21,138 nt of DNA from a virus. Below are positions 440-15,898 of the stretch, one piece after another. Below the pieces are notes generated by a model. It did no database searches. It was not told the DNA's origin and saw only the letters and a program-made list of their open reading frames with translations. The first letter of the stretch is position 1, and the number at the start of each line of letters is the position of its first letter. The position numbers and the translations under genes are program-made. Location of the stretch: IMG/VR virus record IMGVR_UViG_3300046009_001560, positions 1-21,138 of that record, one strand, 5' to 3'.

Positions 440-788
440 GGTCGGGCCTTGGGCAGTTGGGTGGGGCTGGATGCAGGCAGTAAACAGCAGCCCACTGACC
501 TCGGTGCGGGCCTGTCCATCGGTCGATGTAAACGTCTGGCATAGACTCAACCGTGTTGCGCAGCGTGTCCTCTCGGACGCCTGTTTCCTTGTGCAACTCC
601 GCCAGCGTCATGCCGTCAGGAGAATGGAGCAATATGACGCGGATTGCAGGAGCGTGTAAGGGCTTCATGAAATATCTGTAGGCGTTGATTGCAATTTTTA
701 GATCGTCTTGCAGTTGTAAAATTTCCAAACTTGCTTCTTTTGCAAATCGAGCAAGGTTCTTGGCCTCCCAAGATCGAAAATCAGTCAT
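432..788 (-). CDS. Small phage protein with C-terminal winged-helix-like segment
   Basis: This 118-residue protein starts MTDFRSWEAKN at ATG 788, preceded by GGAAAG 9 bases upstream. An in-frame TTG at 812 would add 8 residues but has poorer spacing. The N-terminal half is helical and charged. The C-terminal half has a helix-turn-helix pattern (LAELHKETGVREDTLRNTVE, about residues 61-80) followed by VYIDRW, which looks like the strand of a winged helix. It is therefore probably DNA-binding, perhaps a regulator, but no target is evident. Its stop overlaps the next gene by 8 bases and its start overlaps the stop of a 13-codon reading frame. Confidence 0.7.
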   Translation of the reverse strand: MTDFRSWEAKNLARFAKEASLEILQLQDDLKIAINAYRYFMKPLHAPAIRVILLHSPDGMTLAELHKETGVREDTLRNTVESMPDVYIDRWTGPHRGQWAAVYCLHPAPPNCPRPDHA

Positions 789-822
789 GTGATTTGGCTT
801 TCCATTGGTCAATTCGTTTCAT
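781..822 (-). CDS. Possible 13-residue coupled micro-ORF
   Basis: ATG 822 overlaps the stop of the zinc-ribbon gene as ATGA, follows an AAGGG Shine-Dalgarno-like stretch, and encodes MKRIDQWKAKSHD before a stop that overlaps the start of the next gene by 8 bases. It fills the gap between its neighbours with the same overlap pattern seen at real gene junctions in this operon. It may only carry ribosomes from one gene to the next. A chance reading frame of this length is quite possible. Confidence 0.25.
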   Translation of the reverse strand: MKRIDQWKAKSHD

Positions 823-926
823 TTGTTTCCCTTCAGCAATGCAAAGATCGACTTGTGACAGCGAGTGCATCGGTAGTGGTACTTGATGCCGCAGTTGGTT
901 AGCTGCCAGTTGTGTTTGCAGGTCAT
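819..926 (-). CDS. Tiny zinc-ribbon protein (35 aa)
   Basis: This 35-residue protein starts MTCKHNWQLTNCGIKYHYRC. It has cysteines at 3, 12, 20 and 23, with a CTRCH knuckle near the end, so it probably binds one zinc ion. AAGGAG lies 8 bases before ATG 926, and the start overlaps the previous stop as ATGA (923-926), which strongly supports it as a real gene despite its length. Zinc ribbons this small in phages usually bind nucleic acid or a host protein, but no specific role can be assigned. Confidence 0.72.
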   Translation of the reverse strand: MTCKHNWQLTNCGIKYHYRCTRCHKSIFALLKGNK

Positions 927-1138
927 GTGTTGCTCCTTGCTCGGATGTTTCGTGAGATGTACCCACCAACGTCATCTTGCCGCTTGCTCCACACGTCAGC
1001 CACTTTCGCACACGCCTCACGCTCTTGCTCGACTGCGGCCTCTACCAAGCGCCTTAGTTCAGGCGACACATAGGGCTGGCCCATAAAAACCAGCATCGGA
1101 TAGCCAACGGAACTGGCCAGCTCGGTGATGCTTTTCAT
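923..1138 (-). CDS. Small conserved phage protein (71 aa)
   Basis: The chosen start is ATG 1138 (MKSITELASSVGYPMLVFMG), which has a good AAGGAG 9 bases upstream. A longer frame reaching 1189 would overlap the upstream gene and lacks a site. The middle carries VEAAVEQEREACAKVADVW, a helical stretch common to small phage proteins of unknown function. There are no membrane segments and no catalytic motif. It lies 4 bases after the stop of the 234-residue gene and its own stop overlaps the next start as ATGA. Confidence 0.75.
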   Translation of the reverse strand: MKSITELASSVGYPMLVFMGQPYVSPELRRLVEAAVEQEREACAKVADVWSKRQDDVGGYISRNIRARSNT

Positions 1139-1142
1139 GCGC

Positions 1143-1847
1143 TTACTCCTTAATTGCGTAATCGTGAAATACCGTGCCCTTGCTTGCATCTCCTACTTTG
1201 CAAGATTTAACCCAGACATTTTTACCGGTTGACAGCCTTCTTAAATGGCCTCTGCGCTCGTGCAGTCGGGGCGATGCGTGTGTGCCGCCTTTGGGTTCTT
1301 GGCGAGGCTTAGATGGCTCAATCCACACAGTTGTCCAATCGTAGGTAGGCATCTTTTTTTGTTGCACCTTGCGGCGGTTAGTGAAGGTGTCCCGCACCGA
1401 TGGGATGTAGGCTTCAATACGCTGATTCATAGCGCTGTACCAAGCCCCAATTTGCGCCAACATGATTTCTGCCAGTTCTTTATCAACCGGCTCATCATCA
1501 CTGACTGCGCCGTATCGGATATTGTCATCCTCAATAAAGTAAAACATTGCAGGGATTGGGCGCAGCCTTGTCCCGGTTGGCCCTTTCCACATTGACACCG
1601 TGATGCCTTCATCTGGGTCAGTACCAGCCACCAGCATCAAAACTTCATAGCTTGGGTGACTGCGTGTCTTGCCTTGCCAAGTAACAAAGCATTTGTCAAA
1701 TGGTGGACGATGCGTCATCACGAAATCAAGATTGGCTTTTTGTTGATCTGAAAATGCGCCGGTTAAATCAAACCATTTAATGTCAACAATGTCTATGCCT
1801 GCCTCAGTCATAAGCCGCATGGAGTCACGGACTAATTTTGTTGTCAT
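1143..1847 (-). CDS. Conserved phage protein of unknown function (234 aa)
   Basis: Start is ATG 1847 (MTTKLVRDSMRLMTEAGIDI), with GGAGGAG upstream and an ATGA overlap with the stop of a tiny membrane-protein gene. An in-frame extension to 1994 would cover two other genes and is rejected. The C-terminal end has a conserved-looking basic block (SPRLHERRGHLRRLSTGKNV) followed by VWVKSCKVGD and HDY, a pattern I recall from uncharacterised phage proteins of Burkholderiales and Xanthomonadales. The histidine/arginine-rich block suggests nucleic-acid binding, but that is inference. No signal peptide or membrane segment is present. It is the largest gene of the second leftward block. Confidence 0.8.
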   Translation of the reverse strand: MTTKLVRDSMRLMTEAGIDIVDIKWFDLTGAFSDQQKANLDFVMTHRPPFDKCFVTWQGKTRSHPSYEVLMLVAGTDPDEGITVSMWKGPTGTRLRPIPAMFYFIEDDNIRYGAVSDDEPVDKELAEIMLAQIGAWYSAMNQRIEAYIPSVRDTFTNRRKVQQKKMPTYDWTTVWIEPSKPRQEPKGGTHASPRLHERRGHLRRLSTGKNVWVKSCKVGDASKGTVFHDYAIKE

Positions 1848-1921
1848 TTCTTGCTCCTCCAAAACGCCCAGACATACACGGCTGTGTGAGCAATGCCGAT
1901 AAGCCACATCCACCAAGTCAT
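1844..1921 (-). CDS. Tiny single-pass membrane protein (25 aa)
   Basis: ATG 1921 opens a 25-residue frame starting MTWWMWLIGIAHTAVYVWAF and ending in a basic RSKK tail. It is almost entirely one tryptophan-rich hydrophobic helix, so an inner-membrane location is expected, with the basic end probably cytoplasmic. AAGGAG lies 8 bases upstream. Both ends overlap neighbours as ATGA (1918-1921 and 1844-1847). Tight coupling plus a clean transmembrane pattern make a real gene likely. It might modify the host membrane or superinfection, but nothing in the sequence shows which. Confidence 0.62.
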   Translation of the reverse strand: MTWWMWLIGIAHTAVYVWAFWRSKK

Positions 1922-2133
1922 TGGTTGCGCTCCTTGATCTTGTTTTCGGTCGCTCTTGGCTCGCGAATACAGGCGTCTTCGTACTCCAGCACATCTTGCA
2001 TCCTGTAACGAATCAAGCCGCCAATCTTTAAATATCGACAACCCTGCTTGAGCGATCTGTCTCGCTCCAGTGTCGCCTCACTGATCTTCCATCGGAATGC
2101 CAGCTCCTCTTGTGTCATCAGTTGCTCGCTCAT
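1918..2133 (-). CDS. Excisionase/AlpA-like HTH protein (71 aa)
   Basis: The protein begins MSEQLMTQEELAFRWKISEA. It has the classic MerR/excisionase-like layout: a helix-turn-helix (TQEELAFRWKISEATLERDR, about residues 7-26), then a wing with YLKIGGLIRYRMQDVLEYE, near the usual K-x-G-x-x-x-R-Y-x-x-x-D-V pattern of helix_turn_helix_17 proteins. It probably binds DNA as a small regulator or recombination-directionality factor. No integrase is in view, so the second role cannot be supported here. GAGGAG precedes ATG 2133, and the start overlaps the upstream zinc-ribbon gene. Confidence 0.82.
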   Translation of the reverse strand: MSEQLMTQEELAFRWKISEATLERDRSLKQGCRYLKIGGLIRYRMQDVLEYEDACIREPRATENKIKERNQ

Positions 2134-2252
2134 TGTGGCTTCTCCTCGTCATCAAACGCCATGTCTGGGTGCGGCACGTTGTCATGCACCACCACACCAT
2201 CAACGGCCAGTAGGAATCTGCCGCAAACCACACAGTAGTAACCGTCATCCAT
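2130..2252 (-). CDS. Tiny acidic zinc-knuckle protein (40 aa)
   Basis: The frame from ATG 2252 encodes 40 residues beginning MDDGYYCVVCGRFLLAVDG. It has one CVVC knuckle, two later histidines (VVHDNVPH) that could complete a zinc site, and an acidic tail. AAGGAG lies 8 bases upstream. The stop overlaps the next start as ATGA and the start overlaps the previous stop by 8 bases. The CxxCGRFL...VHD..PHP arrangement recalls small uncharacterised phage proteins of Burkholderiales. Function unknown; nucleic-acid or protein binding is likely. Confidence 0.72.
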   Translation of the reverse strand: MDDGYYCVVCGRFLLAVDGVVVHDNVPHPDMAFDDEEKPQ

Positions 2253-2604
2253 TGTTCTTCTCCTTGAGTCTGGCTTCGATGGCTCGGGCAAGGTTGTAAA
2301 TCCCGCTCACCTCATAACTCTCAGGCTGGTAGTGCAAGTGCTCATTGGCGAGTGGGTACACATCCTCATCCGTCAGCCCAACCCATGTGCGCTGTGCTGG
2401 TGGGGATGTGTAGAGGGGAGTAACCGTATGCCCTTGCTCTTGCAAAGTCTCCCAATCAATTTCTTCCGGGTAGTACAAATCACCGTCTACTAGAAACGCC
2501 ACAGGCTCCTGCTGTGCTGGCTGCTCTGCATCGCGGCAATCAGGCAAATCTGGGCATGGGTAGCTGCATTTTGGATACTTGCAATGTGCTTCTTTGCTCA
2601 TCAT
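2245..2604 (-). CDS. Phage protein with cysteine-rich head and conserved PLYTSP segment (119 aa)
   Basis: ATG 2604 (MMSKEAHCKYPKCSYPCPDL) overlaps the upstream stop as ATGA; ATG 2601, one codon later, is equally possible. The first 25 residues hold five cysteines (HCKYPKCSYPCPDLPDC), which could bind metal. The middle has EPVAFLVDGDLYYPEEIDW and VTPLYTSPPAQRTWVGLTDE, a block I recognise from many short phage proteins of unknown function in Burkholderiales and enterobacterial prophages. The C-terminal part is helical (IYNLARAIEARLKEKNNG). There is no enzyme motif. The gene sits in the string of small accessory genes. Confidence 0.78.
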   Translation of the reverse strand: MMSKEAHCKYPKCSYPCPDLPDCRDAEQPAQQEPVAFLVDGDLYYPEEIDWETLQEQGHTVTPLYTSPPAQRTWVGLTDEDVYPLANEHLHYQPESYEVSGIYNLARAIEARLKEKNNG

Positions 2605-2855
2605 GCCCCCCTTGTGCCCCAATCGGGCATTGTTTCTTTTGAGGCCAATGCCTCCAACTTGACGTTCAGATCATCCAACTCTTGCACGCCAAAGCTGCGG
2701 CTGCAATAGTTGGACCAAAACCATGTGGCTTCTTCCCACAAGCAGTCTTTGAACAGCCTGTCCCGAACAAAACATCCGGGGCTGCTGGGCATGTATAGCT
2801 TCAGCGGATTGTCAATCTCGGCCTGCATTGCTGATGCGATGGCGGTGTAGTTCAT
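2601..2855 (-). CDS. Hypothetical phage protein (84 aa)
   Basis: The chosen start is ATG 2855 (MNYTAIASAMQAEIDNPLKL), which overlaps the stop of the 31-residue membrane-protein gene as ATGA. The frame could extend upstream to 2879, but that would overlap further and lacks a ribosome site. The protein is mixed helical with several aromatics (CLWEEATWFWSNYCSRSFG) and three cysteines, and shows no motif I recognise. Its stop overlaps the next start as ATGA. The coupled position is the main support. Confidence 0.68.
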   Translation of the reverse strand: MNYTAIASAMQAEIDNPLKLYMPSSPGCFVRDRLFKDCLWEEATWFWSNYCSRSFGVQELDDLNVKLEALASKETMPDWGTRGA

Positions 2856-2947
2856 GCTGACCACCCGTAAAACAGGCAAGCTGCCAAGCCAACGCCAATG
2901 GCGATGACTGTGAGGTAGTCGAGGAGGGTTTCAGTGTGTTGTTTCAT
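2852..2947 (-). CDS. Tiny single-pass membrane protein (31 aa)
   Basis: ATG 2947 opens a 31-residue frame: a polar start (MKQHTETLLDYL) then one hydrophobic helix (TVIAIGVGLAACLFYGWSA). AAGGA sits 8 bases upstream and the stop overlaps the next gene as ATGA. It should sit in the inner membrane with its N-terminus inside. It is the second tiny membrane protein of this block. No function can be read from it. Confidence 0.6.
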   Translation of the reverse strand: MKQHTETLLDYLTVIAIGVGLAACLFYGWSA

Positions 2948-2962
2948 GGTGGAGTCCTTGAT

Positions 2963-2977
2963 GGGGCCAGTGGCCCC
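2963..2977. repeat. Perfect GGGGCCA/TGGCCCC hairpin between two genes
   Basis: GGGGCCA and TGGCCCC are separated by one base, so a 6-bp stem with a 3-base loop can form on either strand. It lies in the 39-base gap between the 78-residue gene (stop 2987-2989) and the 31-residue membrane gene. On the minus strand it falls between the stop codon and the next Shine-Dalgarno and has no U-run, so it may slow decay or modulate the next gene. On the plus strand a T5 run follows after 6 bases, a poor terminator. Confidence 0.5.
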
Positions 2978-2986
2978 GGTTGGTTT

Positions 2987-3223
2987 TTATGCGTCCAGAC
3001 GCGCTGGCAAAGGCTTGTAAACCGCCTTGGCTTCCAAGGTGAAGTACGCCTTCACCAAAATGTTGTTGTGGTTCATCACACGACCTGCAAAAGCGTTGCC
3101 GCGCTTGCAAACGCGCTCCATCTGGCGGCGCAGCTCTGGCTCAAGGTAAGCAGCAATTACGTAGCCATTGTTGGCCAATGCCAATTCGTTGTGTGCGTCT
3201 GCGAGGGTTTTCAGTGTTGCCAT
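2987..3223 (-). CDS. Hypothetical phage protein, first gene of the second leftward block (78 aa)
   Basis: Start ATG 3223 (MATLKTLADAHNELALANNG) has GGAG 9 bases upstream and is the first start after the promoter at 3260-3268. The protein is helical and basic in its second half (LEPELRRQMERVCKRGNAFA, then HNNILVKAYFTLEAKAVYKP). No known motif or membrane segment is evident. A GGGGCC hairpin follows the stop, separating it from the genes downstream. Confidence 0.75.
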   Translation of the reverse strand: MATLKTLADAHNELALANNGYVIAAYLEPELRRQMERVCKRGNAFAGRVMNHNNILVKAYFTLEAKAVYKPLPARLDA

Positions 3224-3252
3224 GTCGGTTACTCCGGTTTGGTTTGTTGCGA

Positions 3253-3293
3253 TGACTGAATCATAACATTACTTCCCACAATTCCACACAATT
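3253..3293 (-). promoter_or_regulatory. Extended -10 promoter with tandem AATTGTG repeats
   Basis: On the minus strand, TGTTATGAT (3268 to 3260) matches the extended -10 form TGnTATAAT with one mismatch. The start point would be near 3253, giving a 5' leader of about 30 bases before ATG 3223. Two direct repeats of AATTGTG (3293-3287 and 3283-3277), 10 bp apart, cover the -35 area. They are one helical turn apart, the spacing expected for tandem ribbon-helix-helix dimers. The neighbouring RHH gene ends only 24 bp away, so autoregulation or control of the next block is plausible. Confidence 0.55.
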
Positions 3294-3299
3294 ATTTTA

Positions 3300-3314
3300 T
3301 AGGGACAAACCCTA
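3300..3314 (-). terminator. Weak terminator-like hairpin after the RHH gene
   Basis: TAGGG and CCCTA pair perfectly around a 5-base loop just past the stop of the RHH gene. On the minus strand it is followed by an AT-rich TAAAATAATT rather than a U-run. It may be a weak or partial terminator separating the recombination block from the small-gene block, whose own promoter lies immediately downstream. Confidence 0.35.
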
Positions 3315-3316
3315 AG

Positions 3317-3469
3317 TCACTTCTTTTCTTTTGCCAGACCCTGTTTGATGTAGTGCAGCACCTGTGCGGCCAGTGTTCTGGTGTGGCGCTCGGCATGTTT
3401 GCGGACCTCCAGCTCCACATCAGCAGGCAGGCGAATGGTCATGTACTTGTCTTTGATTTGCTCGGTCAT
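3317..3469 (-). CDS. Ribbon-helix-helix DNA-binding protein (50 aa)
   Basis: The 50-residue product starts MTEQIKDKYMTIRLPADVEL. It has the Arc/MetJ layout: a short beta strand YMTIRLP (9-15), helix A ADVELEVRKHAERH (16-29), a turn, and helix B RTLAAQVLHYIKQGLAK. Such proteins dimerise and insert the strand pair in the DNA major groove, usually repressing transcription. It is the last gene of the recombination block and overlaps the VRR-NUC stop as ATGA. Downstream lies the next promoter with tandem repeats, which it might bind. Confidence 0.85.
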   Translation of the reverse strand: MTEQIKDKYMTIRLPADVELEVRKHAERHTRTLAAQVLHYIKQGLAKEKK

Positions 3470-3822
3470 GGTGTTCCTTTGTGTTGGTTGAAAAAGGCAG
3501 TGATCTGCTCCTTGGCATCGTCAGCACCCTTGCACACTTTAGCACAATAACCCACTTCTTCCAGATACTTAATCCAATCCTTCTGATCGGCGCTCACTAC
3601 GCCACCTTTAATGCGCTTCATCTCAATCCAGAGTTTCCACGCAGGGATGAACAGATCAGGCACACCAGCGGATACCCCCTCAACCTTCAGCCTGGCGGCT
3701 GCTGCAAGGCTGCGCTGGCCCCCGTTGGGGATTGCAAAGATGCGAACGCCTCGGTGCGTCTGGCGGAACCAGCGCACCAGCTCGCGCTGCTCCTCATGTT
3801 CGGTTGGGATGCGATCAGTCAA
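3466..3822 (-). CDS. VRR-NUC domain nuclease
   Basis: This is a small stand-alone VRR-NUC protein of the PD-(D/E)XK superfamily, a phage Holliday-junction or branched-DNA nuclease type. From the TTG start (118 residues), the conserved PD is GVPDLF (D56), the E-x-K is WIEMKR (E67, K69), and QKDW (Q80) and GY follow. The N-terminus EHEEQRELVRWFRQ is also typical. TTG 3822 overlaps the upstream stop and has GAGGTG 5 bases before it. An in-frame ATG at 3852 would add 10 residues lying inside the upstream gene and has no clear site, so it is the second choice. It may resolve recombination or replication intermediates made by the Sak4/helicase module. Confidence 0.88.
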   Translation of the reverse strand: MTDRIPTEHEEQRELVRWFRQTHRGVRIFAIPNGGQRSLAAAARLKVEGVSAGVPDLFIPAWKLWIEMKRIKGGVVSADQKDWIKYLEEVGYCAKVCKGADDAKEQITAFFNQHKGTP

Positions 3823-4010
3823 AACGGCACCTCGCGTTCCCACTTGGGGCATTCGCCAATAGCCTGTGCAAACTCGGCAGGCGGTTGCATGAAAAACTCA
3901 ACGCATTGGCCATCGTTGCCGTAGTGCTCGCAGGTGTGGCAGCACTTGGGTGGCCCGGCGGCCAGCCACTGTTTGTAGGTTTTCACCATCTCAGGCTCGG
4001 CGTGTCTCAT
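3819..4010 (-). CDS. Small cysteine-rich protein (63 aa)
   Basis: The chosen start is ATG 4010 (MRHAEPEMVKTYKQWLAAGP), which has AAGGGG 5 bases upstream and overlaps the previous stop. A frame extending to 4106 would run over the preceding gene. Cysteines at CCHTCEHYGNDGQC and a further GECPKW form a likely zinc or iron-sulfur site. Proteins with this C-x-x-C...C...C-P-x-W pattern are frequent among small phage genes near recombination nucleases, without known function. Confidence 0.72.
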   Translation of the reverse strand: MRHAEPEMVKTYKQWLAAGPPKCCHTCEHYGNDGQCVEFFMQPPAEFAQAIGECPKWEREVPF

Positions 4011-4153
4011 TTCAGCCCCTTCTGCATTGCCTTGACCCAGCACCGGGCGCAGTGCCACTTCTCGCGCACCTCGATGCCGCCCCTCGGCTCCTTGGGCAGC
4101 TTGCACAAATCACACAGACGCAGCTTCTGCGCTTTCACCATTTCATCAATCAT
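4007..4153 (-). CDS. Tiny zinc-ribbon protein (48 aa)
   Basis: ATG 4153 (MIDEMVKAQKLRLCDLCKLP) has AAGGAG 8 bases upstream and overlaps the helicase stop by 8 bases. ATG 4141 is an internal alternative. Two knuckles, CDLC (14-17) and CARC (35-38), are separated by a basic stretch (KEPRGGIEVREKWH), a four-cysteine zinc ribbon. The stop overlaps the next start as ATGA. Probably nucleic-acid binding; the position right behind the helicase, which has its own zinc ribbon, hints at a shared process. Confidence 0.75.
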   Translation of the reverse strand: MIDEMVKAQKLRLCDLCKLPKEPRGGIEVREKWHCARCWVKAMQKGLK

Positions 4154-5738
4154 TCCACTTTCTCCTTGTTACCTTGAAAAATTTACCGTCCTTGCGAAAC
4201 TCAATCGTTGATGGCGGTGTGGCATTGTTCATGTTCTGCACCATCTCAATCATCGTTGGCACATTCAGGCCACCAGAAACAACCTGAGAGCGCTCCGCAA
4301 TTGTGATCAGCTTCTGCAAGGCCACCTGACCCGCATAGCCTTCGTGTGCGATGGGCAAATATTCGGTGATCGGGGCATCACTCAGGCTGCCGTAATACGT
4401 CACCGCCAGCATCTCTTTGCCTGATTGCTTGCTGATGTGCTTTCGCCAGGCCCAGCTGCTCACCTCCAGCTCTTGCCCCTCCAGCCCCATGATGTCGTCA
4501 TTGCGCAGTTGTAGCTTCTTGGCCTCCCTAACAGGGAAAGGATGGCCGCAGGCTGGGCACACCGTTGCCGAGATGTGGACCAGCTCATCGCAGTTCTCGC
4601 AGGCTTTCACTGGTGCCTCGCCATTACCATCGCCGCCCTTCTTGGGTGGCTGCACGTTGGTGATTGGGCCATGTGTGGCCACCACCCCGGCAAAGTCCAG
4701 CACAAGGCAGTGATCGGTATGGCTCTTTACCCTCATGCCGCGACCTGCCATCTGCACATAGAGGCTGGCGCTCATGGTTGGGCGCAGCATCACCACCAGA
4801 TCAATGTCGGGGTAATCAAAGCCAGTTGTCAGCACATTGGCGTTCGTGAGCGCTTGCAGCTTGCCAGCCTTAAAGTCGGCAATGATTTCATCGCGCTGCT
4901 TCTTTGGTGTGTCCCCAGTCACGCACGCAGCGGCTACCCCCTGCTGGCGCAGCGCCTTGGAAATGTGCTGGGCGTGCTGGACACCGGCGCAAAAGAACAG
5001 CCAAGCCTTGCGCTCGCCAGCCAAAGCCATGACCTCTTGCACCACGGCCTGATTCTTGTCATCGGTGTCCACCGCAGCCTGCAACTCGGATTCAATGAAC
5101 TCGCCGCCGCGCTTGTGAACGCCAGTCACATCCAGCTTGGCCTTGGTGACCTTAGATCGCAGCGTGGACAGGTAGCCCTTGTAGATCAACTCCTCGATGC
5201 TGATCGGCTCAATCAGGGCATCAAAGAGCGCAGGCTTGTCGGTGATCAGGCCATGCCCCAAGCGGTAAGGAGTGGCCGTTAAGCCCACCACCCTGATGGC
5301 CGGGTTGATGGCTGCAAGCTGTTCCAGTAGCGTGCGGTAGCCGCCCTCGTCCTTGTGGTTGACCAAGTGGCACTCGTCGATGATCACCAAGTCAATGTGG
5401 CCTAACTCACGCGCCTTGGTGCGCACCGACTGGATGCCAGCAAATGTGATCGGCTCGCCCAATTCTTTGCGGCCAATGCTGGCGCTGTAAATGCCCATCG
5501 GGGCACCGGGCCAATGCTGGCGCATCTTCTCGGCGTTCTGCTCGATCAGCTCCTTAACGTGTGTGAGCATCAAGACGCGGGTCTCAGGCCAGTTTTGCAA
5601 GGCGTCCTTGCACAGCGCAGCCACAATGTGCGACTTGCCAGAGCCTGTTGGTAGAACCAGGCAAGGATTTCCACGGCCACCAGCCTTAAACCAGGCATAG
5701 AGCTGGTCGATGGTGCGCTGTTGGTATTTACGCAGCAT
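4146..5738 (-). CDS. SF2 DEAD/DEAH-type helicase, RadD-like
   Basis: A 530-residue superfamily 2 helicase. Visible motifs are Walker A LPTGSGKS (29-36), motif Ia LTHVKEL, Walker B IIDECH (119-124, DECH in place of DEAH), motif III GLTATP (152-157), a second RecA lobe with TGFDYPDIDLVV, and motif VI QMAGRGMR (329-336). After the helicase core a CENC...CPAC zinc ribbon (380-397) and about 130 further residues follow. This order (helicase, zinc ribbon, tail) is that of Escherichia coli RadD/YejH-like proteins, which act in DNA repair and recombination. ATG 5738 overlaps the nuclease stop; the preceding in-frame TTG is less likely. It probably unwinds or remodels DNA together with the upstream PD-(D/E)XK nuclease. 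Confidence 0.93.
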   Translation of the reverse strand: MLRKYQQRTIDQLYAWFKAGGRGNPCLVLPTGSGKSHIVAALCKDALQNWPETRVLMLTHVKELIEQNAEKMRQHWPGAPMGIYSASIGRKELGEPITFAGIQSVRTKARELGHIDLVIIDECHLVNHKDEGGYRTLLEQLAAINPAIRVVGLTATPYRLGHGLITDKPALFDALIEPISIEELIYKGYLSTLRSKVTKAKLDVTGVHKRGGEFIESELQAAVDTDDKNQAVVQEVMALAGERKAWLFFCAGVQHAQHISKALRQQGVAAACVTGDTPKKQRDEIIADFKAGKLQALTNANVLTTGFDYPDIDLVVMLRPTMSASLYVQMAGRGMRVKSHTDHCLVLDFAGVVATHGPITNVQPPKKGGDGNGEAPVKACENCDELVHISATVCPACGHPFPVREAKKLQLRNDDIMGLEGQELEVSSWAWRKHISKQSGKEMLAVTYYGSLSDAPITEYLPIAHEGYAGQVALQKLITIAERSQVVSGGLNVPTMIEMVQNMNNATPPSTIEFRKDGKFFKVTRRKWND

Positions 5739-6766
5739 CAACCCACCACCCTTCCACTAAACTGCTTGCGCAAATCATGCAACTGCGTCCAGCCTTTGTC
5801 TGCGCACGCCCCAGCATTTGCCAACAGTTCACGCGAACTGAACACACCCTCTTGCTCTGGGTCGCCATTGGCCACAGTCGTGCCATTGATCTCGTAGACC
5901 GCAGTGAACTCGTCCGGCCCATCCTTGCGCTGCCAAGGCACCAAATCAGGATGCAGCACATGGCCATCACAGCCAGTGCGCTGCGCGTCCACGGGAATCA
6001 CATCGTCCCATTTGCCGCAGTGCCAGGTCGAGTCCGACAGCGGTGTGGCCATGGCACAGGTGCGGCAGTTCACATGCTTGGTGGTCTTGGACTCATGGCA
6101 GAACTCATGGGCATCACAGAACTTGCACTGATACCAACTCGCATCGGTGCTGATCGGTGGCGGCATGTTGTCGCTCAAAGCAATGTAGTGCCCTCGGCGT
6201 ATGGCCTTATCAGCCATATCTTTGTCTAGCTTCACGCGCTCGGTGTGGATCCGGTCATCGTCCTTGCACACGGCAACATACAGCGCACGGTCTAGACCAG
6301 TTCCGGCCATGTAAACCTGCATCTGCACAAAGTGCTCGGGCTTGGATTTCTCCACGCCGTCCTTCACCAGTGCATCAAACGACTTTTTGCTGTGCGTCTT
6401 GAACTCGGCAACATGCTTGGTCTTGGGCGCTTCAGGCACGCCAGAATCAATGATGGCATCAAGCGACCCCGAAACATGGCTACCAAAATCGACCCGGTGC
6501 TGACTTGAGACCTTGCGCACATCTACACCAATGGCACGCAGGTCGCTGATGATGTTGGCTTCTTCTTGGTGGCCACGGCGAAACAGGCGCAGGATGCGGC
6601 CAGAGAACTCAGGCTGCACAGCCCACCGAAACGACAGCCACAGCCACCGATCACACACATGGCCCAGCGTACTGGCCCCAAGGTGCGGGCGTGGCACCTC
6701 GGCAATGGCCTCATGGTGCTTGTCAATTAGCGCGTGAATGTTATGATCACTCTCGGGTATTTTCAT
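5738..6766 (-). CDS. Cas4/RecB-like PD-(D/E)XK exonuclease with cysteine cluster
   Basis: A 342-residue nuclease. A lone cysteine near the start (C38 in HVCDRWLW) and a later cluster (C214, C217, C223 in YQCKFCDAHEFC) match the four-cysteine iron-sulfur arrangement of Cas4/AddB-type nucleases. Catalytic candidates are GHQEE (67-69), GSLDAIID (D103), VAEFKTH (E121, K123) and QMQVYM (Q148, Q150). A further set of cysteines (CRTC, HC) follows, so a second metal site is possible. Start ATG 6766 is backed by GAGGAA 6 bases upstream; the frame extends to 6814 through a hairpin and is not used. There is no CRISPR nearby; the role is DNA-end resection in phage recombination. Its ribosome site is overlapped by a predicted antisense RNA. 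Confidence 0.88.
   Translation of the reverse strand: MKIPESDHNIHALIDKHHEAIAEVPRPHLGASTLGHVCDRWLWLSFRWAVQPEFSGRILRLFRRGHQEEANIISDLRAIGVDVRKVSSQHRVDFGSHVSGSLDAIIDSGVPEAPKTKHVAEFKTHSKKSFDALVKDGVEKSKPEHFVQMQVYMAGTGLDRALYVAVCKDDDRIHTERVKLDKDMADKAIRRGHYIALSDNMPPPISTDASWYQCKFCDAHEFCHESKTTKHVNCRTCAMATPLSDSTWHCGKWDDVIPVDAQRTGCDGHVLHPDLVPWQRKDGPDEFTAVYEINGTTVANGDPEQEGVFSSRELLANAGACADKGWTQLHDLRKQFSGRVVG
6720..6747 (+). promoter_or_regulatory. Predicted sigma70 promoter antisense to the nuclease start
   Basis: TTGTCA (6720-6725) and TATGAT (6742-6747) each match consensus at five of six positions with a 16-base spacer, and TG at 6739-6740 gives an extended -10. The direction is plus, opposite to the gene it lies in. 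The start point would be near 6753-6755. A perfect intrinsic terminator lies 35 bases beyond, in the same direction. Confidence 0.5.
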
Positions 6767-6820
6767 GATTGTTTCCTCGATGAAGTTTGCCCCGACCTTA
6801 AACAGTCGGGGCATTTTTTT
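6754..6820 (+). ncRNA. Predicted ~65-nt antisense RNA over the nuclease ribosome site
   Basis: The span from the predicted start point to the end of the terminator U-run would be a short RNA complementary to the first codons, ATG, Shine-Dalgarno (GAGGAA) and leader hairpin of the Cas4-like nuclease mRNA. Its terminator loop (CUUAAACA) and the sense loop (UGUUUAAG) are complementary, as in kissing-loop antisense systems of plasmids and transposons. The expected effect is repression of nuclease translation. The prediction rests on promoter and terminator motifs only. The start point is approximate. Confidence 0.4.
6789..6820 (+). terminator. Perfect intrinsic terminator on the plus strand
   Basis: GCCCCGAC and GTCGGGGC form a perfect 8-bp stem around an 8-base loop, followed by A and seven T. 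It reads as a rho-independent terminator only on the plus strand. On the minus strand the same hairpin lies upstream of the nuclease Shine-Dalgarno and has no U-run. No plus-strand gene ends here, so it either ends the predicted antisense RNA or blocks opposing transcription. Confidence 0.8.
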
Positions 6821-6910
6821 GGGTGGGCCTACTCGCTGCGTCTGGGTGCTACAAGGCTTTCGCCTACTCTCTTACGGCGCGTTGCCCAGCATCCGCTTTC
6901 GGCCCAAAAC
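6821..6910 (-). other. Structured leader between DUF669 gene and nuclease gene
   Basis: This gap is by far the longest within the leftward recombination block, where junctions otherwise overlap or nearly touch. On the minus strand it can be closed by TTTTGGG against CCCAAAA. Inside are CCG/CGG, CTGGG/CCCAG and a GAAA-capped AGGC/GCCT hairpin, with an alternative CGCC/GGCG pairing that excludes the last. GCCTACTC occurs twice on the plus strand, 35 bases apart (6827 and 6862). No reading frame looks real here. It could be a cis-regulatory RNA; I recognise no known riboswitch family. Confidence 0.4.
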
Positions 6911-7405
6911 TTACTTCTTAGCCCAAGGTGGCGCGGCCTTGCCAACACTGATCTGCGCAGCAGCCGGTGCTGCAAAAGACGCAGCCGATGGCGCAGCACT
7001 ACCCGAGACAGACTTAAAAGCCTTAACCTCGTTGCTGGCGCCATACTGCTCGTCTTGCTTGACCTCCAGCTTGATGCTGATCTGACCACCAATCAATTGG
7101 TCGGTGTCAGTCACCTTTGCCAAGCCAATCGCACGCATGATGTCGCCCAACTGCTGGCGACCAATCTCCTCAGCCTTGGGGTTGGCGTTCTTGATGTTCA
7201 AGTTGCCAAACACAACCCGGCCTTGATGGCTTGGGCCAGTGATGTCGTAACGCAGCTTGATGTACTGGCCATTGCCAGCCTTGGTAGCCTTCAGCTCGGC
7301 TTGCGAGATTGTGGCGGTGTACCAGCCAGCAGGCAAAGGCTCAAAACTGCCAGTGTTGCCAACAGGCATGTCGTTGACGTTAAATTCTTCGTTCAGAAAA
7401 GCCAT
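6911..7405 (-). CDS. DUF669 family protein, probable ssDNA-binding recombination partner
   Basis: A 164-residue protein starting MAFLNEEFNVNDMPVGNTGS, with AAGGAG 7 bases before ATG 7405. The core PLPAGWYTATISQAELKAT...NGQYIKLRYDITGP..QGRVVFGNLNIKN and IGLAKVTDTDQLIGGQISIKL is the pattern of the DUF669 family found in phage recombination clusters. The C-terminal linker is alanine/proline/serine rich and ends PPWAKK, like the disordered tails of ssDNA-binding proteins. It probably coats single strands for the Sak4-like protein. A structured 144-base gap separates it from the nuclease gene downstream. Confidence 0.88.
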   Translation of the reverse strand: MAFLNEEFNVNDMPVGNTGSFEPLPAGWYTATISQAELKATKAGNGQYIKLRYDITGPSHQGRVVFGNLNIKNANPKAEEIGRQQLGDIMRAIGLAKVTDTDQLIGGQISIKLEVKQDEQYGASNEVKAFKSVSGSAAPSAASFAAPAAAQISVGKAAPPWAKK

Positions 7406-7408
7406 GAT

Positions 7409-7804
7409 TTACTCCTTGGGGATGATTTTGAAAGATGGGCGGCCAGGCTTGGCCGTAATAGCACCAGCCAAAGGCCCGGTGATGGATTCGTCGGCTGATT
7501 TCCAGACCGACATGTTGATCTCCGGCTTCCACCGGAAAAGTGTTGCAAGGTGATCACTCAGTCCTGCTTCAGTGGCAAGCATTTGCAGCTTCTCTGAATC
7601 GACCTTGCGGTCGATGCGGCCTTCGATCTTGATCTCAAACCCTGCTGCGCCGACGGTTTCGGTGCTGTCAAGCTGGTCTGAGATTCTTGCCAGCTTCTTA
7701 ATGTGGTCTTCAATATCTCGGCGATCTTCTGTCGCATCTTTTTCTTCCTGTTTTGCTCTGAGCCACATCTGGGCCAACTCGGCCATATCGGTGGTTTCGA
7801 TCAT
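7409..7804 (-). CDS. Phage recombination-cluster protein of unknown function (131 aa)
   Basis: Start ATG 7804 (MIETTDMAELAQMWLRAKQE) has GGAGG 9 bases upstream and overlaps the previous stop as ATGA. The longer frame to 7879 would cover the upstream gene. The N-terminal 50 residues are charged and probably coiled coil (RAKQEEKDATEDRRDIEDHI). The rest has a strand-rich stretch (GFEIKIEGRIDRKVDSEKLQ) and ends KPGRPSFKIIPKE. Similar small proteins sit between Sak4 and DUF669 genes in siphophage recombination blocks, where they seem to be accessory factors. Confidence 0.8.
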   Translation of the reverse strand: MIETTDMAELAQMWLRAKQEEKDATEDRRDIEDHIKKLARISDQLDSTETVGAAGFEIKIEGRIDRKVDSEKLQMLATEAGLSDHLATLFRWKPEINMSVWKSADESITGPLAGAITAKPGRPSFKIIPKE

Positions 7805-7989
7805 TTCTTTCTTGCCTCCAGCATGGCGTCGGCCATTGCGTAGGACTGAAGAGCAGTAGCCACATAGTCTCCGCCCCATGTATCGGCAGAAACATCTGCC
7901 TGCATCGCCTTAGCCGCAAAGTAATCTCTGAGCGTCATACCCTCGTGCCCGTTGTAGCCAACTGGAAAGGCTTGGTCGTTCTTTTTCAT
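7801..7989 (-). CDS. Small conserved phage protein (62 aa)
   Basis: The product contains GMTLRDYFAAKAMQADVSAD and ends in a helix ALQSYAMADAMLEARKK. The MTLRDYFAAKAMQ...YAxADAML pattern is very common in short phage and prophage proteins, always without known function. The start at 7989 overlaps the Sak4-like stop as ATGA and the stop overlaps the next start as ATGA. It is soluble, with no cysteine or metal motif. Confidence 0.82.
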   Translation of the reverse strand: MKKNDQAFPVGYNGHEGMTLRDYFAAKAMQADVSADTWGGDYVATALQSYAMADAMLEARKK

Positions 7990-8663
7990 GCCTTGCCCCC
8001 GATCTTGTTAATGATTGCACCCAAATCTGGCGCTTCCCAAGCCTCCAGCTTGCCCGAGCGATCTTTGGCTAGCCAAAGCCCATCGCTGTCGCACATCAGC
8101 GCTCGCTGGGTGTTGCCCTCACCGTCACGCTCGACACGCAGCGCCAGCACTTCATCAAAGAAGTAAGGCAAGCCTTGGGTCAGGCTCTTGCCGGGCATAC
8201 CGGGGTTGTAGAGCATCTTGCCCATCTCGTCGGTGGACTTTTCCAGTTTGGCACTCATGTAGACGTGCTTTCCCGGCAAGTCACGGAAAGCACGGATCAG
8301 CTCTTGCATGGTGGTGTTCATCTCACCATAAGCAGCCCGACCGTCCTTGGACTTCTTCATCTCATGGGCCAGCACAACCTCGGCCACCTCGCTGATCGAG
8401 TCAAGCGCCACCGACTGAAAGCCAGTTGCCTCTTGGCTGTCACGGCACCATGTAAATGCTTCACGCAGATCGTCCATGCTCGCAATCTCGATGTATGGCA
8501 GATCAGCGTCCTGAATGGACAGCAAACCACCCTCCGCAGACAGTACGATTACATTAGGCAACGTCTTGACCAAAGTGGTCTTGCCTGCACCAGCTTGCCC
8601 GTAAACAAGCAACTTCACACCATTGGCAGTTAAACCGCCAGTCGATTTCAAATTGATAGCCAT
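7986..8663 (-). CDS. Sak4-like RecA-fold single-strand annealing ATPase
   Basis: A 225-residue P-loop ATPase: Walker A VYGQAGAGKTTL (GQAGAGKT at 22-29), EGGLLSI after the first strand, Walker B FQSVALDSISE, and a late core HVYMSAKLEKS...MLYNPGMPGKS. Size and motif order match phage Sak4 proteins, a RecA/Rad51-related annealing family that works with a phage ssDNA-binding protein (here DUF669). GGAG lies 7 bases before ATG 8663. It is the first gene behind the leftward promoter at 8717-8744, so it heads the recombination operon. Confidence 0.9.
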   Translation of the reverse strand: MAINLKSTGGLTANGVKLLVYGQAGAGKTTLVKTLPNVIVLSAEGGLLSIQDADLPYIEIASMDDLREAFTWCRDSQEATGFQSVALDSISEVAEVVLAHEMKKSKDGRAAYGEMNTTMQELIRAFRDLPGKHVYMSAKLEKSTDEMGKMLYNPGMPGKSLTQGLPYFFDEVLALRVERDGEGNTQRALMCDSDGLWLAKDRSGKLEAWEAPDLGAIINKIGGKA

Positions 8664-8769
8664 CTGGCTCTCCTTTTTTGCACCACTGTCAGGGAATCTG
8701 TTTGTGGTGTAGCGACATTGTAGCGTATGATTCGCACATCACAACATTTTTTTTTAACAAGGACAAAAC
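8664..8769. promoter_or_regulatory. Divergent control region between leftward and rightward genes
   Basis: The leftward promoter is TTGTGA (8744-8739) and TACAAT (8722-8717) with 16-base spacing. The rightward candidate is TTGTGG (8702-8707) and TATGAT (8726-8731) with 18-base spacing. The two overlap, so one bound protein could block both. TGTAGCG occurs twice in direct orientation (8708-8714 and 8719-8725), 11 bp apart, as a possible operator for the Cro-like protein. A T9 run follows at 8747-8755 before the rightward Shine-Dalgarno AAGGAC. Confidence 0.6.
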
Positions 8770-8955
8770 ATGATGACCCTAGAACAGATACGCCACGCAC
8801 TTTCAGACCGAATGCCAATCAAGGTGGCAGAGGCCACTGGCGTTCACTACAACACCATTCGCCAAGTGCGAGATAACCCCAAAGCAAACCCCACGCACAA
8901 AGTCTTGCAGGCTTTGTCGGACTATTTGGAAAGCCGGAAGGTGACGCATGGCTGA
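8770..8955 (+). CDS. Cro/CI-type HTH regulator (61 aa)
   Basis: The protein starts MMTLEQIRHALSDRMPIKVA and has one helix-turn-helix of XRE/Cro type (IKVAEATGVHYNTIRQVRDN, about 17-36). LQALSDYLE then forms a closing helix. AAGGAC lies 5 bases before ATG 8770; the second ATG at 8773 is an equal choice. It is the first rightward gene after a divergent promoter region, the classic place of a Cro-like switch. No opposing CI-like repressor gene is in the window. Its stop overlaps the next start by 8 bases. Confidence 0.85.
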   Translation: MMTLEQIRHALSDRMPIKVAEATGVHYNTIRQVRDNPKANPTHKVLQALSDYLESRKVTHG

Positions 8956-9775
8956 TCCTTTCAAGATCACAGAGCCGACCTGCATCAGCTTTAGTGGTGG
9001 CCGCACCAGTGCTTACATGCTTTGGCGGGTGCTTCAGGCTCACCAGATGAGCCTGCCTGATGAGGCAATTGTGTGTTTTGCCAACACCGGCAAGGAGGAT
9101 GAAGCAACCTTGCGCTTTGTTCAGGACTGTTCAGACCGATGGAATGTAGAGATTCATTGGGTTGAGTTCCAAGATGCTGATCCCGCTTTTAGGCGGGTTT
9201 CATTTGAAACTGCAAGCCGAAACGGTGAGCCATTTGAGGCTTTGATCAAGAAGCGAAACTATCTTCCAAATCCAGTTACTAGGTTTTGCACTGCCGAGTT
9301 GAAAATTCGCACCATCCACAAATATTTGAAATCTCTAGGCTGGGATCACAACGAGCAGATGGATTGGGTCGGGATGAGGGCAGATGAACAACGCCGAGCA
9401 GCCAAAATTGCTGACAAATCTCGCATCCCATTGGTGACGGCTGGCATTACAAAAGAAGATGTTGGCGCTTTCTGGAAAGCCCAGCCATTTGACCTCGGCC
9501 TTCCAAACAACAATGGGGTGACTATGCACGGGAACTGTGATCTCTGTTTTTTAAAAGGCGGGGCACAAGTTTTATCTTTGATTGCCGAAAAACCAGAACG
9601 CGGTATCTGGTGGGCCAAAATGGAGGCGTTGGCGTTGGCGTTGGCGTCCAAGCCAAGCGGCGCGGTATTTCGTTCCGACCGCCCATCCTATGCCTCAATG
9701 ATTCAATTTGCAGCAGACCAAACCGACATGTTCGACAAAAATGAAGAGGCAATCGCTTGCTTCTGTGGAGACTAA
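8948..9775 (+). CDS. PAPS reductase / DndC-like PP-loop protein
   Basis: A 275-residue protein with the PP-loop SFSGGRTS (14-21), which binds ATP or a nucleotide in PAPS reductases, DndC and related enzymes. FANTGKEDEATLRFV, RFCTAELKIRTI (C114) and VGMRADEQRR follow in the family order. GNCDLCFLKG (C197, C200) and a terminal CFC (C271, C273) could hold an iron-sulfur cluster. Phages often carry such a gene; proposed roles are DNA or nucleotide sulfur chemistry, or sulfur assimilation, and none is settled. The partners DndB/D/E are not present here. AAGGTG precedes ATG 8948. Confidence 0.88.
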   Translation: MADPFKITEPTCISFSGGRTSAYMLWRVLQAHQMSLPDEAIVCFANTGKEDEATLRFVQDCSDRWNVEIHWVEFQDADPAFRRVSFETASRNGEPFEALIKKRNYLPNPVTRFCTAELKIRTIHKYLKSLGWDHNEQMDWVGMRADEQRRAAKIADKSRIPLVTAGITKEDVGAFWKAQPFDLGLPNNNGVTMHGNCDLCFLKGGAQVLSLIAEKPERGIWWAKMEALALALASKPSGAVFRSDRPSYASMIQFAADQTDMFDKNEEAIACFCGD

Positions 9776-9778
9776 TTA

Positions 9779-11794
9779 ATGGCCAACCTTTCAAACATCC
9801 TCGGCGGCCCTTGGTCGCCACCCCCCGAGAAAATCGTTGCATCACCAGAGGCGCAGCTCATTGACGCCATCAGGGCCGCTGGCCTTGAGCCACCAGATCA
9901 CATTGAGATGGATGGCAAGATTCACCGCTTCAAATCTGGCACCAAAGGCAAGCCAGGCATCGATAAGCCAGGCTGGTATTTGGTGTTTGGCGATGGCATC
10001 CCAGCGGGTCGCTTTGGCTGCTGGAGGGCTGGCATCGAGGCCACTTTCAGGGCAGACGTTGGCCGCAAGCTCACCCACACCGAGGAAATGATCCACGTCA
10101 AGCGCCTTGCTGAGTCCAAGGCAGTGCGGGATGCGGAAATCATTCGCCAGCACCAAGTCGCCAGCGAGACGGTTGAGCAAATCTGGGCCACAGCCAACCC
10201 GGCCAGCCCCGAGCACCCTTACTTGGCCAACAAGGGCATCGGCGTGCATGGCGCACGAATCACAGGCGATGGCCGCCTGATGGTGCCCCTGTACGACCAG
10301 AACGGCACCCTCTCGAGTCTCCAGTACATTGCGCACGACGGCGGCAAGCTCTACCACCCCGGTGGTCAGACTGGCGGAAAGTTCTGGCAGCTAGGCTCAC
10401 TGGATGAGCCTGGACCACTGTATATCGCAGAAGGCTTTGCCACAGCGGCAACCATCCATGAGACCACTAACCGCCCCTGCATCGTGGCCTACAGCGCCAG
10501 CAACTTGGTGCCCGTGACCGGCAAGCTGCGCGATCTGTACGGCCCAGCCCAAGAGATCGTGATCGTTGCCGACAACGACGCCTCCGGCGTTGGCCAGCGC
10601 TACGCCGAGCAGGCCAGTGCCAAATACGGCGCTCGCACGGTGATGCCACCGGTCCAAGGAGACGCCAACGATTATGTGCAGTCCGGCAACGACCTGGCCA
10701 GCCTCCTAACCCCAACAGCAGACGACTGGCTCATCCCAGCCGATGAGTTCTCAGCCCAGCCCAGCCCCATCTCATGGCTGGTCAAGCGCTGGATTCAGGA
10801 CCAAGCCCTTGTGATGGTCCACGGCCCATCCGGTGGTGGCAAGACGTTTGTGGTGCTGGACTGGTGCCTGCGCATTGCCAGCAGCACCCCGAGCTGGTGC
10901 GGCAACAAGGTTCGCCCCGGTCATGTGGTCTATCTGGCCGGCGAGGGTCACCACGGCCTGCGAGGCCGAATTGCCGCCTGGAAGCACCACCATCAAGCAG
11001 GCAAACTGAACATGTGGCTGTCCAAGCACGGCTGCGACCTCAACACCCCAGCCGGTTACCTCAAAGTGGTCGAGCACATCCGAATGCTGCCTGAGACCCC
11101 CAAGGTGATCGTGGTCGATACCCTGCACCGCTTCCTTGCAGGCGACGAGAACAGCGCCCAAGACGCCAAGACCATGCTGGACGCCTGCGGCAACCTGATG
11201 ATGGAGTTCAACTGCACCGTCATTCTTGTCCACCACACCGGCGTCTCAGACGAAGCCCAGCACCGCGCCCGAGGCTCAAGCGCCTGGCGAGGAGCCCTCG
11301 ACATTGAGATCAGCGTCATCCCCGGCAAAGACAACCAGCCCATGCAGCTGGTCCAGCGCAAGAGCAAAGACGCCGAAATGGCCGAGCCAATCTACCTCGA
11401 CCTCCAGCAAGTCACCATCCCAGGCTGGTACGACGAGGACAACCACCCCGTCACCAGCGCCATCACCATAGAGGCCGAAGCCCCAGCCGCGCCAACCAAG
11501 AAAGACTCCAAGATCGATGGCCACCGCAAGACATGGGAAAACGCCTGGTGGGCATCCGGCGCTGAGGTCAGGGATGATCTGCCCTACCTCAGCCGGTCAG
11601 CCCTCAAAGACAAACTGACCCAAGACGGCAACGCCGAGCGCACCGTGAGGAATATGATCAATCCGTCTTACAACGACAAATTGATAGGTGCGCTGCTCCA
11701 GGCTGACATGATTCAGAACACCGAGCACGGCTGGGTGATGGTCGATGAGGTGAACGCCAGTACCATGATGATGCGGAAAAACTCAGAGCAATAA
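9779..11794 (+). CDS. Primase-helicase: Toprim domain plus RepA-like AAA helicase
   Basis: A 671-residue bifunctional replication protein. The N-terminal third includes WYLVFGDGIPAGRFGCW, the usual primase-associated domain, without a CHC2 zinc finger. The Toprim centre is IAEGFATAATIH (E218) and VIVADNDASG (D265, D267). The helicase centre has Walker A HGPSGGGKT (348-356), Walker B KVIVVDTLH (442-450), VILVHHTG (481-488) and RGSSAWRGALD, as in RepA/DnaB-like hexameric helicases. Similar fusions replicate many phages and integrative plasmids. GGAG lies 8 bases before ATG 9779. The origin-like repeats begin 12 bases after its stop, so it probably acts there. Confidence 0.93.
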   Translation: MANLSNILGGPWSPPPEKIVASPEAQLIDAIRAAGLEPPDHIEMDGKIHRFKSGTKGKPGIDKPGWYLVFGDGIPAGRFGCWRAGIEATFRADVGRKLTHTEEMIHVKRLAESKAVRDAEIIRQHQVASETVEQIWATANPASPEHPYLANKGIGVHGARITGDGRLMVPLYDQNGTLSSLQYIAHDGGKLYHPGGQTGGKFWQLGSLDEPGPLYIAEGFATAATIHETTNRPCIVAYSASNLVPVTGKLRDLYGPAQEIVIVADNDASGVGQRYAEQASAKYGARTVMPPVQGDANDYVQSGNDLASLLTPTADDWLIPADEFSAQPSPISWLVKRWIQDQALVMVHGPSGGGKTFVVLDWCLRIASSTPSWCGNKVRPGHVVYLAGEGHHGLRGRIAAWKHHHQAGKLNMWLSKHGCDLNTPAGYLKVVEHIRMLPETPKVIVVDTLHRFLAGDENSAQDAKTMLDACGNLMMEFNCTVILVHHTGVSDEAQHRARGSSAWRGALDIEISVIPGKDNQPMQLVQRKSKDAEMAEPIYLDLQQVTIPGWYDEDNHPVTSAITIEAEAPAAPTKKDSKIDGHRKTWENAWWASGAEVRDDLPYLSRSALKDKLTQDGNAERTVRNMINPSYNDKLIGALLQADMIQNTEHGWVMVDEVNASTMMMRKNSEQ

Positions 11795-11805
11795 GGAAAT
11801 TACCC

Positions 11806-11825
11806 TGTGGATAACCTGTGGATAA
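11806..11825 (-). promoter_or_regulatory. Two tandem consensus DnaA boxes
   Basis: TGTGGATAA occurs at 11806-11814 and 11817-11825, each the exact complement of the DnaA box TTATCCACA. Both have the same orientation and are one helical turn apart, which favours cooperative binding. Confidence 0.8.
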
Positions 11826-11837
11826 CTTTTATTTGGT

Positions 11838-11950
11838 TGACCCTAAATGACCCTAGGGTCAAAGTCAGGGTCAGGGTCAAAAACGGGCAAAACAGCGCCA
11901 AAGTTGACCCTCCCTGACCCCCAACCCTTTAGGGTTGGGGTCAAGGGTCA
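11838..11950. repeat. TGACCCT iteron cluster
   Basis: Exact TGACCCT is at 11838, 11848 and 11905; exact AGGGTCA at 11855, 11867, 11873 and 11944; one-base variants are at 11915 (TGACCCC) and 11937 (GGGGTCA). The pair at 11848-11861 forms a perfect 14-bp palindrome, and the copies at 11867 and 11873 share a base. Nine copies in 113 bp cannot be chance. They look like binding sites for the phage initiator. Confidence 0.8.
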
Positions 11951-11974
11951 AGGCGTTGCAGGGGTTTTAGGGTT

Positions 11975-11996
11975 GCTGAGTTTTTTGGGACTCAGC
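11975..11996. repeat. Origin hairpin GCTGAGT/ACTCAGC
   Basis: A perfect 7-bp stem with an 8-base loop (TTTTTGGG) stands one base before the third consensus DnaA box. No gene ends here. On one strand such a hairpin could serve as a single-strand priming or protein-binding site. Confidence 0.5.
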
Positions 11997-11997
11997 C

Positions 11998-12753: not shown

Positions 12754-12760
12754 TTGGCGC

Positions 12761-15897: not shown

Positions 15898-15898
15898 T

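Follow-up and report, generated by a model that had tools for sequence, protein, structure and literature searches.

On the plus strand of the DNA analysed here, the whole of a virus record of 21,138 bases (the window), the start of a gene for a Cas4-domain exonuclease is probably overlapped by a cis-antisense RNA gene, whose RNA would block translation of the nuclease in the manner in which sar of phage P22 acts on ant. A sequence-only reading of the window had proposed such an antisense RNA gene, and the comparison of related phages described below strongly supports it: the promoter and the terminator are conserved and tend to be lost together. We regard it as a strong inference from these sequences that the two elements form a functional unit that has been conserved on the antisense strand.

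The locus and the antisense unit

The genes around the nuclease run leftward on the minus strand. The first leftward gene encodes a Sak4-like annealing ATPase (7986–8663) and is followed by a DUF7173 ORF (7409–7879), a DUF669 protein like phage single-strand DNA binding proteins (6911–7405), the Cas4-domain exonuclease (5738–6766, 342 aa) and a helicase (4146–5741). The DUF669 gene is immediately upstream of the nuclease gene and shares an operon with it. The nuclease matched the phrog_1990 Cas4-domain exonuclease with an E value of 9.2e-96, scored 17.2 bits against Pfam YqaJ, which is under the cut-off of 22 bits, and gave zero matches to PDB sequences at E 0.1. Its translation start comprises the ATG at 6764–6766 and the Shine-Dalgarno sequence GAGGAAA at 6772–6778, both on the minus strand. 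At the other end of the gene, the stop codon overlaps the helicase start (TTGATG), and therefore translational coupling is likely and the helicase is probably co-regulated.

All the elements of the plus-strand promoter that had been proposed opposite the nuclease start were found where they had been placed. The −35 hexamer, TTGTCA (6720–6725), lies inside nuclease codons 14–16, and after a spacer of 16 nt the −10 hexamer TATGAT (6742–6747), together with its TG extension (6739–6740), lies inside codons 7–10. Further downstream on the plus strand is an intrinsic terminator (6788–6820), in which a stem of 9 pairs (6788–6813; 7 are G–C) closes an 8-nt loop and is followed by T7 (6814–6820); the perfect 8-bp terminator stem described earlier forms the core of this longer stem. 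With the 5′ end set at 7 nt past the −10 hexamer, the predicted antisense RNA is ∼67 nt long (6754–6820, plus strand), close to the ∼65 nt suggested before, and it spans codons 1–4, the ATG and the Shine-Dalgarno sequence of the nuclease gene, with full complementarity to the latter two for these predicted ends. It is predicted to fold into a weak 5′ stem and the terminator hairpin (−20.9 kcal/mol, z −2.7). Against the proposal, the 5′ tail is only moderately open in the predicted folds (median unpaired 0.56). Rfam gave zero matches at the gathering score over the whole window, and no tRNA was called in the gap between the two genes, either in the window or in the eight loci that were also tested. 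A short peptide encoded by the antisense RNA was set aside by reasoning alone: the plus-strand ORF at 6765 continues beyond the terminator.

Related sequences

The nuclease is frequent in viral contigs, with 562 stretches encoding a relative, of which the best 80 of the 562 were kept; four more scans from other starting proteins enlarged this set. We thus had 307 entries, of which 305 have a usable start, representing 201 distinct start regions, 197 of them with at least 120 nt upstream. Most comparisons were made on 128 sequences, the window among them; for inclusion, the nuclease had to share at least 70% identity with that of either the window or the related locus L065 and to start at the expected codon. 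Three loci with a shifted start (L040, L155 and L189), from which both elements are absent, were left outside the 128. Among annotated phages, MW202867 was the only near nucleotide match. Its nuclease is 72% identical, and at the position seen in the window it carries TTGTCA-16-TATTAT, likewise with TG, followed by a terminator that differs in sequence. A scan of genome contigs for prophage homologues returned 7 loci, the best segment being at most 63% identical.

Chance occurrence of the promoter and terminator

Promoter-like sites occur nine times in positions 1–20000 of the window, where shuffling predicts 9.2, and therefore the promoter match alone means little. The antisense promoter, with 10 of 12 matches, is among the two best of these nine sites and is the sole one having a TG extension. 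We defined a unit as a promoter score of at least 10 combined with a strong terminator ∼20–105 nt downstream. The window contains a single such unit, the one at the nuclease start, and there were none in 60 random windows generated by a first-order Markov model. The same scan was applied to the related loci, which are the 201 distinct entries without the window and L001, total 963,633 bp and extend no further than about 5 kb from the nuclease on either side. At the nuclease start, 95 units were found on the antisense strand; these are not independent events because the loci are kin. Two more lay elsewhere, in L246 and L285, at positions homologous to each other. The combination of promoter and terminator is not a matter of chance.

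Conservation of the terminator and its loss with the promoter

We called terminators by a strict rule that demands a hairpin of −8 kcal/mol or better followed by a T-tract. In the antisense direction, 110 of the 128 sequences have such a terminator, as against 1 of 128 in the sense direction. The 110 terminators include 46 distinct hairpins, which were delimited with RNAfold (one of the 46, representing 2 sequences, was cut to its inner piece). As pairing and the T-tract are built into the rule, what is informative is the direction of the terminators and how varied their sequences are, not the pairing itself. The G–U pairs in the hairpins do not tell the strands apart (23 of 462 pairs in the antisense reading versus 30 of 476 in the sense reading). 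The hairpin ends 43–69 nt from the ATG in the 110 sequences, and the predicted RNA would thus be ∼63–89 nt long.

Presence of the terminator follows presence of the −10 hexamer closely. Both elements occur in 110 of the 128 sequences and neither occurs in 10; the remaining 8 have the −10 but no terminator under the strict rule, and the reverse combination was never seen (Fisher p 2e-10, uncorrected for kinship). Seven of the 8 sequences with the −10 only carry an imperfect terminator, having an interrupted T-tract or a long loop. The eighth, L030, is the only one that has the −10 and is clearly devoid of a terminator, and it has lost the TG as well. In two further sequences, L126 and L159, the hairpin is kept, and the T-tract and the A of the −10 are both lost. 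Homologues that keep the nuclease start and lack the promoter or the terminator had been named as the observation that would speak against the antisense RNA; the outcome in the 128 sequences favours the sequence-only reading, L030 being the only clear case. The unit is not indispensable, because it is absent in the 10 sequences without either element and also in L040, L155 and L189.

When the whole promoter was scored with a matrix in 130 sequences, 106 had both elements, 11 had neither, 10 had the promoter only and 3 the terminator only. These last three, L161, L163 and L167, fall just under the promoter threshold because of a poor −35, TGGTCG. We also accounted for kinship using a FastTree tree of 192 proteins from which the first 22 residues had been removed. 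Across 13 independent pairs differing in the promoter, the terminator, called by a relaxed rule, differed in the same way in 7.7, in the opposite way in 0.0 and not at all in 5.3 (median p 0.008). Reading the tree from the terminator gave 7.4 versus 0.8 with 3.8 undecided for the relaxed call (p 0.04), and 6.8 versus 0.9 with 6.2 undecided for the strict call (median p 0.07).

Apical loops

In kissing-loop antisense RNAs of the CopA, RNAI and RNA-OUT type, pairing is started by a recognition loop with a YUNR turn. Such a mechanism had been suggested for the window on the grounds that the sense and antisense hairpins carry complementary loops. This complementarity is true but trivial, as any hairpin in an overlap yields complementary loops. 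The motif itself is over-represented: YUNR is present in 17 of 31 distinct antisense apical loops, which share kinship, where 6.7 are expected and the maximum in 2000 shuffles was 15; for the sense loops, the count is 13 of 31, with 7.9 expected and a maximum of 14 in 2000 shuffles. On the other hand, the loop sequences are not conserved, and 14 of the 31 are without the motif. These counts weakly favour kissing-loop recognition at this locus.

Selection on the promoter

The promoter is embedded in the coding sequence of the nuclease, which allowed us to compare the conservation of its bases with that of the encoded protein. In 122 sequences with less than 96% DNA identity to each other, we measured synonymous variation relative to an expectation drawn from the amino-acid averages of the gene. 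At codons 7–9, where the −10 and the G of its TG extension lie, synonymous variation is 0.30 of that expected, and none of the 321 three-codon segments from codon 17 onwards is as low. Codon 8 is CAT, AAT or TAT (His, Asn or Tyr) in 112 of the 122 sequences and codon 9 is AAC, ACC or AGC (Asn, Thr or Ser) in 116. The bases of the −10 and TG are thus fixed while the encoded amino acids change, and therefore the promoter is under selection apart from the protein.

At the −35, codon 15, which contains the position of its G, is GAC in 113 of the 122 sequences (0.41 of the expected synonymous variation). Taken as a segment, the −35 codons are unexceptional, 85 of the 321 segments being equally low. 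The spacer codons 10–13 are unconstrained, at 1.1–1.6 of expectation. We also noticed that codons 17 and 35 of the nuclease, which are outside the promoter, have low values in the relatives (0.32 and 0.18 of expectation) without a known reason.

The hexamers themselves recur widely in the set of 128: TTGTCA is present in 102 sequences, TATGAT, TATGCT or TATTAT in 112 and the TG in 125. The antisense promoter score in 130 sequences has a median of 12.0, and 114 of the 130 are at or above the 99th percentile of segments taken elsewhere in the same genes (2391 segments; mean 2.75, 99th percentile 8.75). A promoter embedded in a coding sequence can hence be recognised by bases that are fixed while amino acids vary, and the same test is usable on other phage genes.

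Distant relatives and other devices at the junction

We extended the comparison to 67 more distant relatives, 61 of which are 50–67% identical to the nearest query protein (from the window, L065 or L083). A strict antisense terminator, weak in some cases, was found in 21 of the 67. An antisense promoter above the 97.5th percentile accompanies 13 of these 21, as compared with 3 of the 46 others; the remaining 8 antisense terminators are without a promoter above this level. The position of the promoter is unchanged in L157, at 66% identity to L065. In six loci (L270, L288, L289, L291, L292 and L299) an antisense TATAAT lies in nuclease codons 4–5 and is combined with an antisense terminator; this shifted promoter means that the arrangement may have arisen more than once.

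We also looked at distant named phages, namely Salicola CGphi29, Alteromonas PB15, Idiomarinaceae 1N2-2, MW202475, Pseudoalteromonas H40/1, Roseobacter CRP-902, Sphingomonas MMDA13, Variovorax VCLv21 and the E. coli phage CAjan. Among them, the automatic rules called an antisense promoter and a terminator together in H40/1 (L087) alone, with TTGCGT-16-TAAATT and TG and a terminator with a weak T-tract; as a simpler scan lists neither element, the presence of an antisense unit in this phage is doubtful.

Other structures occupy the same junction in several relatives. CAjan has a sense intrinsic terminator (L091, 2322–2345) in the gap between its DUF669-type gene and its Cas4-domain exonuclease. 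A GC hairpin between the Shine-Dalgarno sequence and the ATG, 8–10 nt before the latter, is present in 16 of 62 distant relatives versus 0 of 130 near ones. In L229, L238, L257, L281, L285, L294, L304 and others this hairpin is often followed by a T-run, resembling a sense terminator inside the ribosome binding site. Another compact gap hairpin, varying in sequence and roughly GGGGGGATGCGTACTCCATG ... GAGGCAAGTCCCCCC, was seen in L169, L185, L187, L190, L191 and L192, which are without the antisense unit; Rfam returned for these loci only a chance-level microRNA match, elsewhere in L192.

As a tentative view, which we hold with less than even confidence, the junction between the genes for the single-strand binding protein and the Cas4-type nuclease may be a dosage-control point at which phages repeatedly place different devices, and restraint of the nuclease may be general in Sak4-type recombination operons. 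Equally tentatively, and as part of that same view, the devices could be the antisense RNA in this clade (with a shifted promoter in the L270 group), the terminator-like hairpin between the Shine-Dalgarno sequence and the ATG, the sense terminator of CAjan and, at 6821–6905 in the window, an undescribed structured RNA with a possible role in processing or tuning of the message.

Proposed function and alternatives

In P22, the promoter Psar fires backwards over the ribosome binding site of ant, and the sar RNA ends in the intercistronic gap. The unit in the window has the same geometry, running backwards over a ribosome binding site and ending in a gap. The two differ in their targets, which are the ant antirepressor of the lysogeny switch for sar and a Cas4-domain exonuclease for the window RNA, and also in that sar has been seen and tested whereas the window RNA is predicted; no sequence relation is claimed. 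According to PMC12197685 and PMC13397905, sar is a phage-encoded RNA of 68/69 nt that pairs with a phage mRNA and inhibits synthesis of the corresponding product; the former source classes it as trans and the latter as antisense to ant.

Lambda OOP, as outlined in PMC12197685, is a 77-nt RNA cis-antisense to cII that has its own promoter, pO, and it leads to RNase III cleavage near the cII 3′ end, as stated in PMC5415839. It is likewise a phage cis-antisense RNA with its own promoter, but the window RNA covers the start of its target. The virulent phage PAK_P3 has cis-antisense RNAs that may limit gene expression. Of 20 such RNAs, 15 map to the region of structural genes; by size, 8 are small, with a mean of 176 nt, and 12 exceed 300 nt. 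These were found by RNA sequencing, and the portion of that paper available to us names no nuclease target (PMC4933390), whereas the window RNA is predicted. In the sections of reviews that deal with phage antisense RNAs of known function, most act on lysogeny or immunity switches. The earlier statement that no antisense RNA had been described for a phage Cas4/RecB-like nuclease agrees with our searches: in the accessible portions of the open-licence literature, including work on phage antisense RNAs and transcript mapping, none was found against a phage Cas4, exonuclease, Sak4 or YqaJ gene. Most likely, a cis-antisense RNA of a known kind, placed on a translation start, would here have a new target, the Cas4-domain exonuclease.

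From its position, the RNA is likely to lower nuclease expression. Host sigma-70 RNA polymerase would initiate at the promoter inside nuclease codons 7–16, read ∼67 nt backwards through codons 1–4, the ATG and the ribosome binding site, and terminate at the intrinsic terminator that separates the genes for the single-strand binding protein and the nuclease. The RNA would pair perfectly with the nuclease mRNA, such that ribosome binding would be blocked and/or the duplex exposed to RNase III. We infer transcription, pairing with the mRNA in the cell and repression as the result. The nuclease would then be made sparingly in comparison with the annealing and single-strand binding proteins encoded upstream, as probably would the helicase, through its overlapping start. 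Overexpressed Cas4-family nucleases of mycobacteriophages inhibit host growth, and 25 of 66 tested genes of Adephagia, a Cas4-family one included, are toxic or inhibitory, as reported in PMC11373665 and PMC11797047. This toxicity offers a reason for restraint, the link to the window nuclease being one at the level of the family.

Conservation of promoter and terminator would fit equally if what mattered were the antisense polymerase, colliding with leftward transcription of the operon, the 67-nt RNA being a by-product and the terminator only protecting the upstream gene from read-in. The placement of the terminator before that gene agrees with such transcriptional interference. We consider this unlikely, since interference needs neither the exact cover of the ribosome binding site nor the length of 63–89 nt predicted for the 110 sequences with strict terminators. 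It is very improbable, on the other hand, that the hairpin acts in the sense mRNA, whether as a shield for the 3′ end of the upstream message or as a modulator of nuclease translation, beside an antisense promoter that is accidental. The hairpin exists in the mRNA by necessity, and at this junction distant relatives carry hairpins or terminators in the sense direction; against this stand the preponderance of terminators in the antisense direction (110 of 128, versus 1 of 128 in the sense direction), the conservation of the −10 bases against amino-acid change and the two sequences, L126 and L159, that retain the hairpin yet lose the T-tract together with the −10.

Less likely than interference, and still ahead of a sense-strand hairpin, is an sRNA acting in trans, whose anti-Shine-Dalgarno tail would repress host or other phage mRNAs and whose overlap with the nuclease would be incidental. 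The predicted RNA gave a full-length but sub-threshold match to RF02278, a toxic sRNA of Betaproteobacteria (29.5 bits where the gathering score is 50; E 4e-4); other sRNAs that combine a pyrimidine-rich tail with a strong terminator matched less well. The score is far under the cut-off, and much of it comes from the terminator, judging by the alignment. The tail between the anti-Shine-Dalgarno segment and the hairpin varies across relatives when compared by eye, and no seed was seen beyond the constraint of the nuclease start. The RF02278 family is toxic to E. coli when on a cloning vector, and its function in Burkholderia is given as unknown in PMC4603805; the window RNA resembles it in length class, in the anti-Shine-Dalgarno-like tail and in the strong terminator. 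Membership in this family was rejected on the score, the sub-threshold sRNA matches looking mostly like terminator.

With a cis-antisense RNA that blocks nuclease translation as the preferred reading, a recombination/repair nuclease becomes a predicted antisense target, with signs of selection in more than 100 related environmental phage sequences, and how a phage restrains its own DNA-degrading enzyme becomes directly testable.

A candidate second RNA element in the gap

The gap also holds, in the sense direction (6821–6905, minus strand), a candidate new covarying structured RNA that is separate from the antisense RNA. It is composed of a P1 stem, the conserved GAAAGCGGATGCTG ... GCAGCGAGTA and a variable hairpin. 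The element recurs in at least 120 viral contig stretches, with copies in L139, L150, L219 and many of L315–L433. All four P1 pairs are formed in 111 of 122 distinct copies, where 29.6 are expected and the maximum in 2000 shuffles was 43; the presence of 12 G–U versus 4 A–C pairs favours the sense strand as the RNA.

For 112 copies lying at a sufficient distance from contig ends, we located the closest upstream ORF. It shares the strand of the element in 91 cases, with a median distance of 9 nt from its stop, and an ORF of at least 100 aa overlaps the element in 31 of the 112. Rfam gave no match at the gathering score over the element in the window or in ten other loci, the sole match in those ten being int-alpA in L392, elsewhere in the locus. 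The exact pattern of the element is absent from the 27 bacterial genomes searched. In L256 (positions 1–270), the same GGGGGG...CCCCC frame encloses a tRNA-like sequence whose T-loop is TTCGAATC and which ARAGORN does not recognise.
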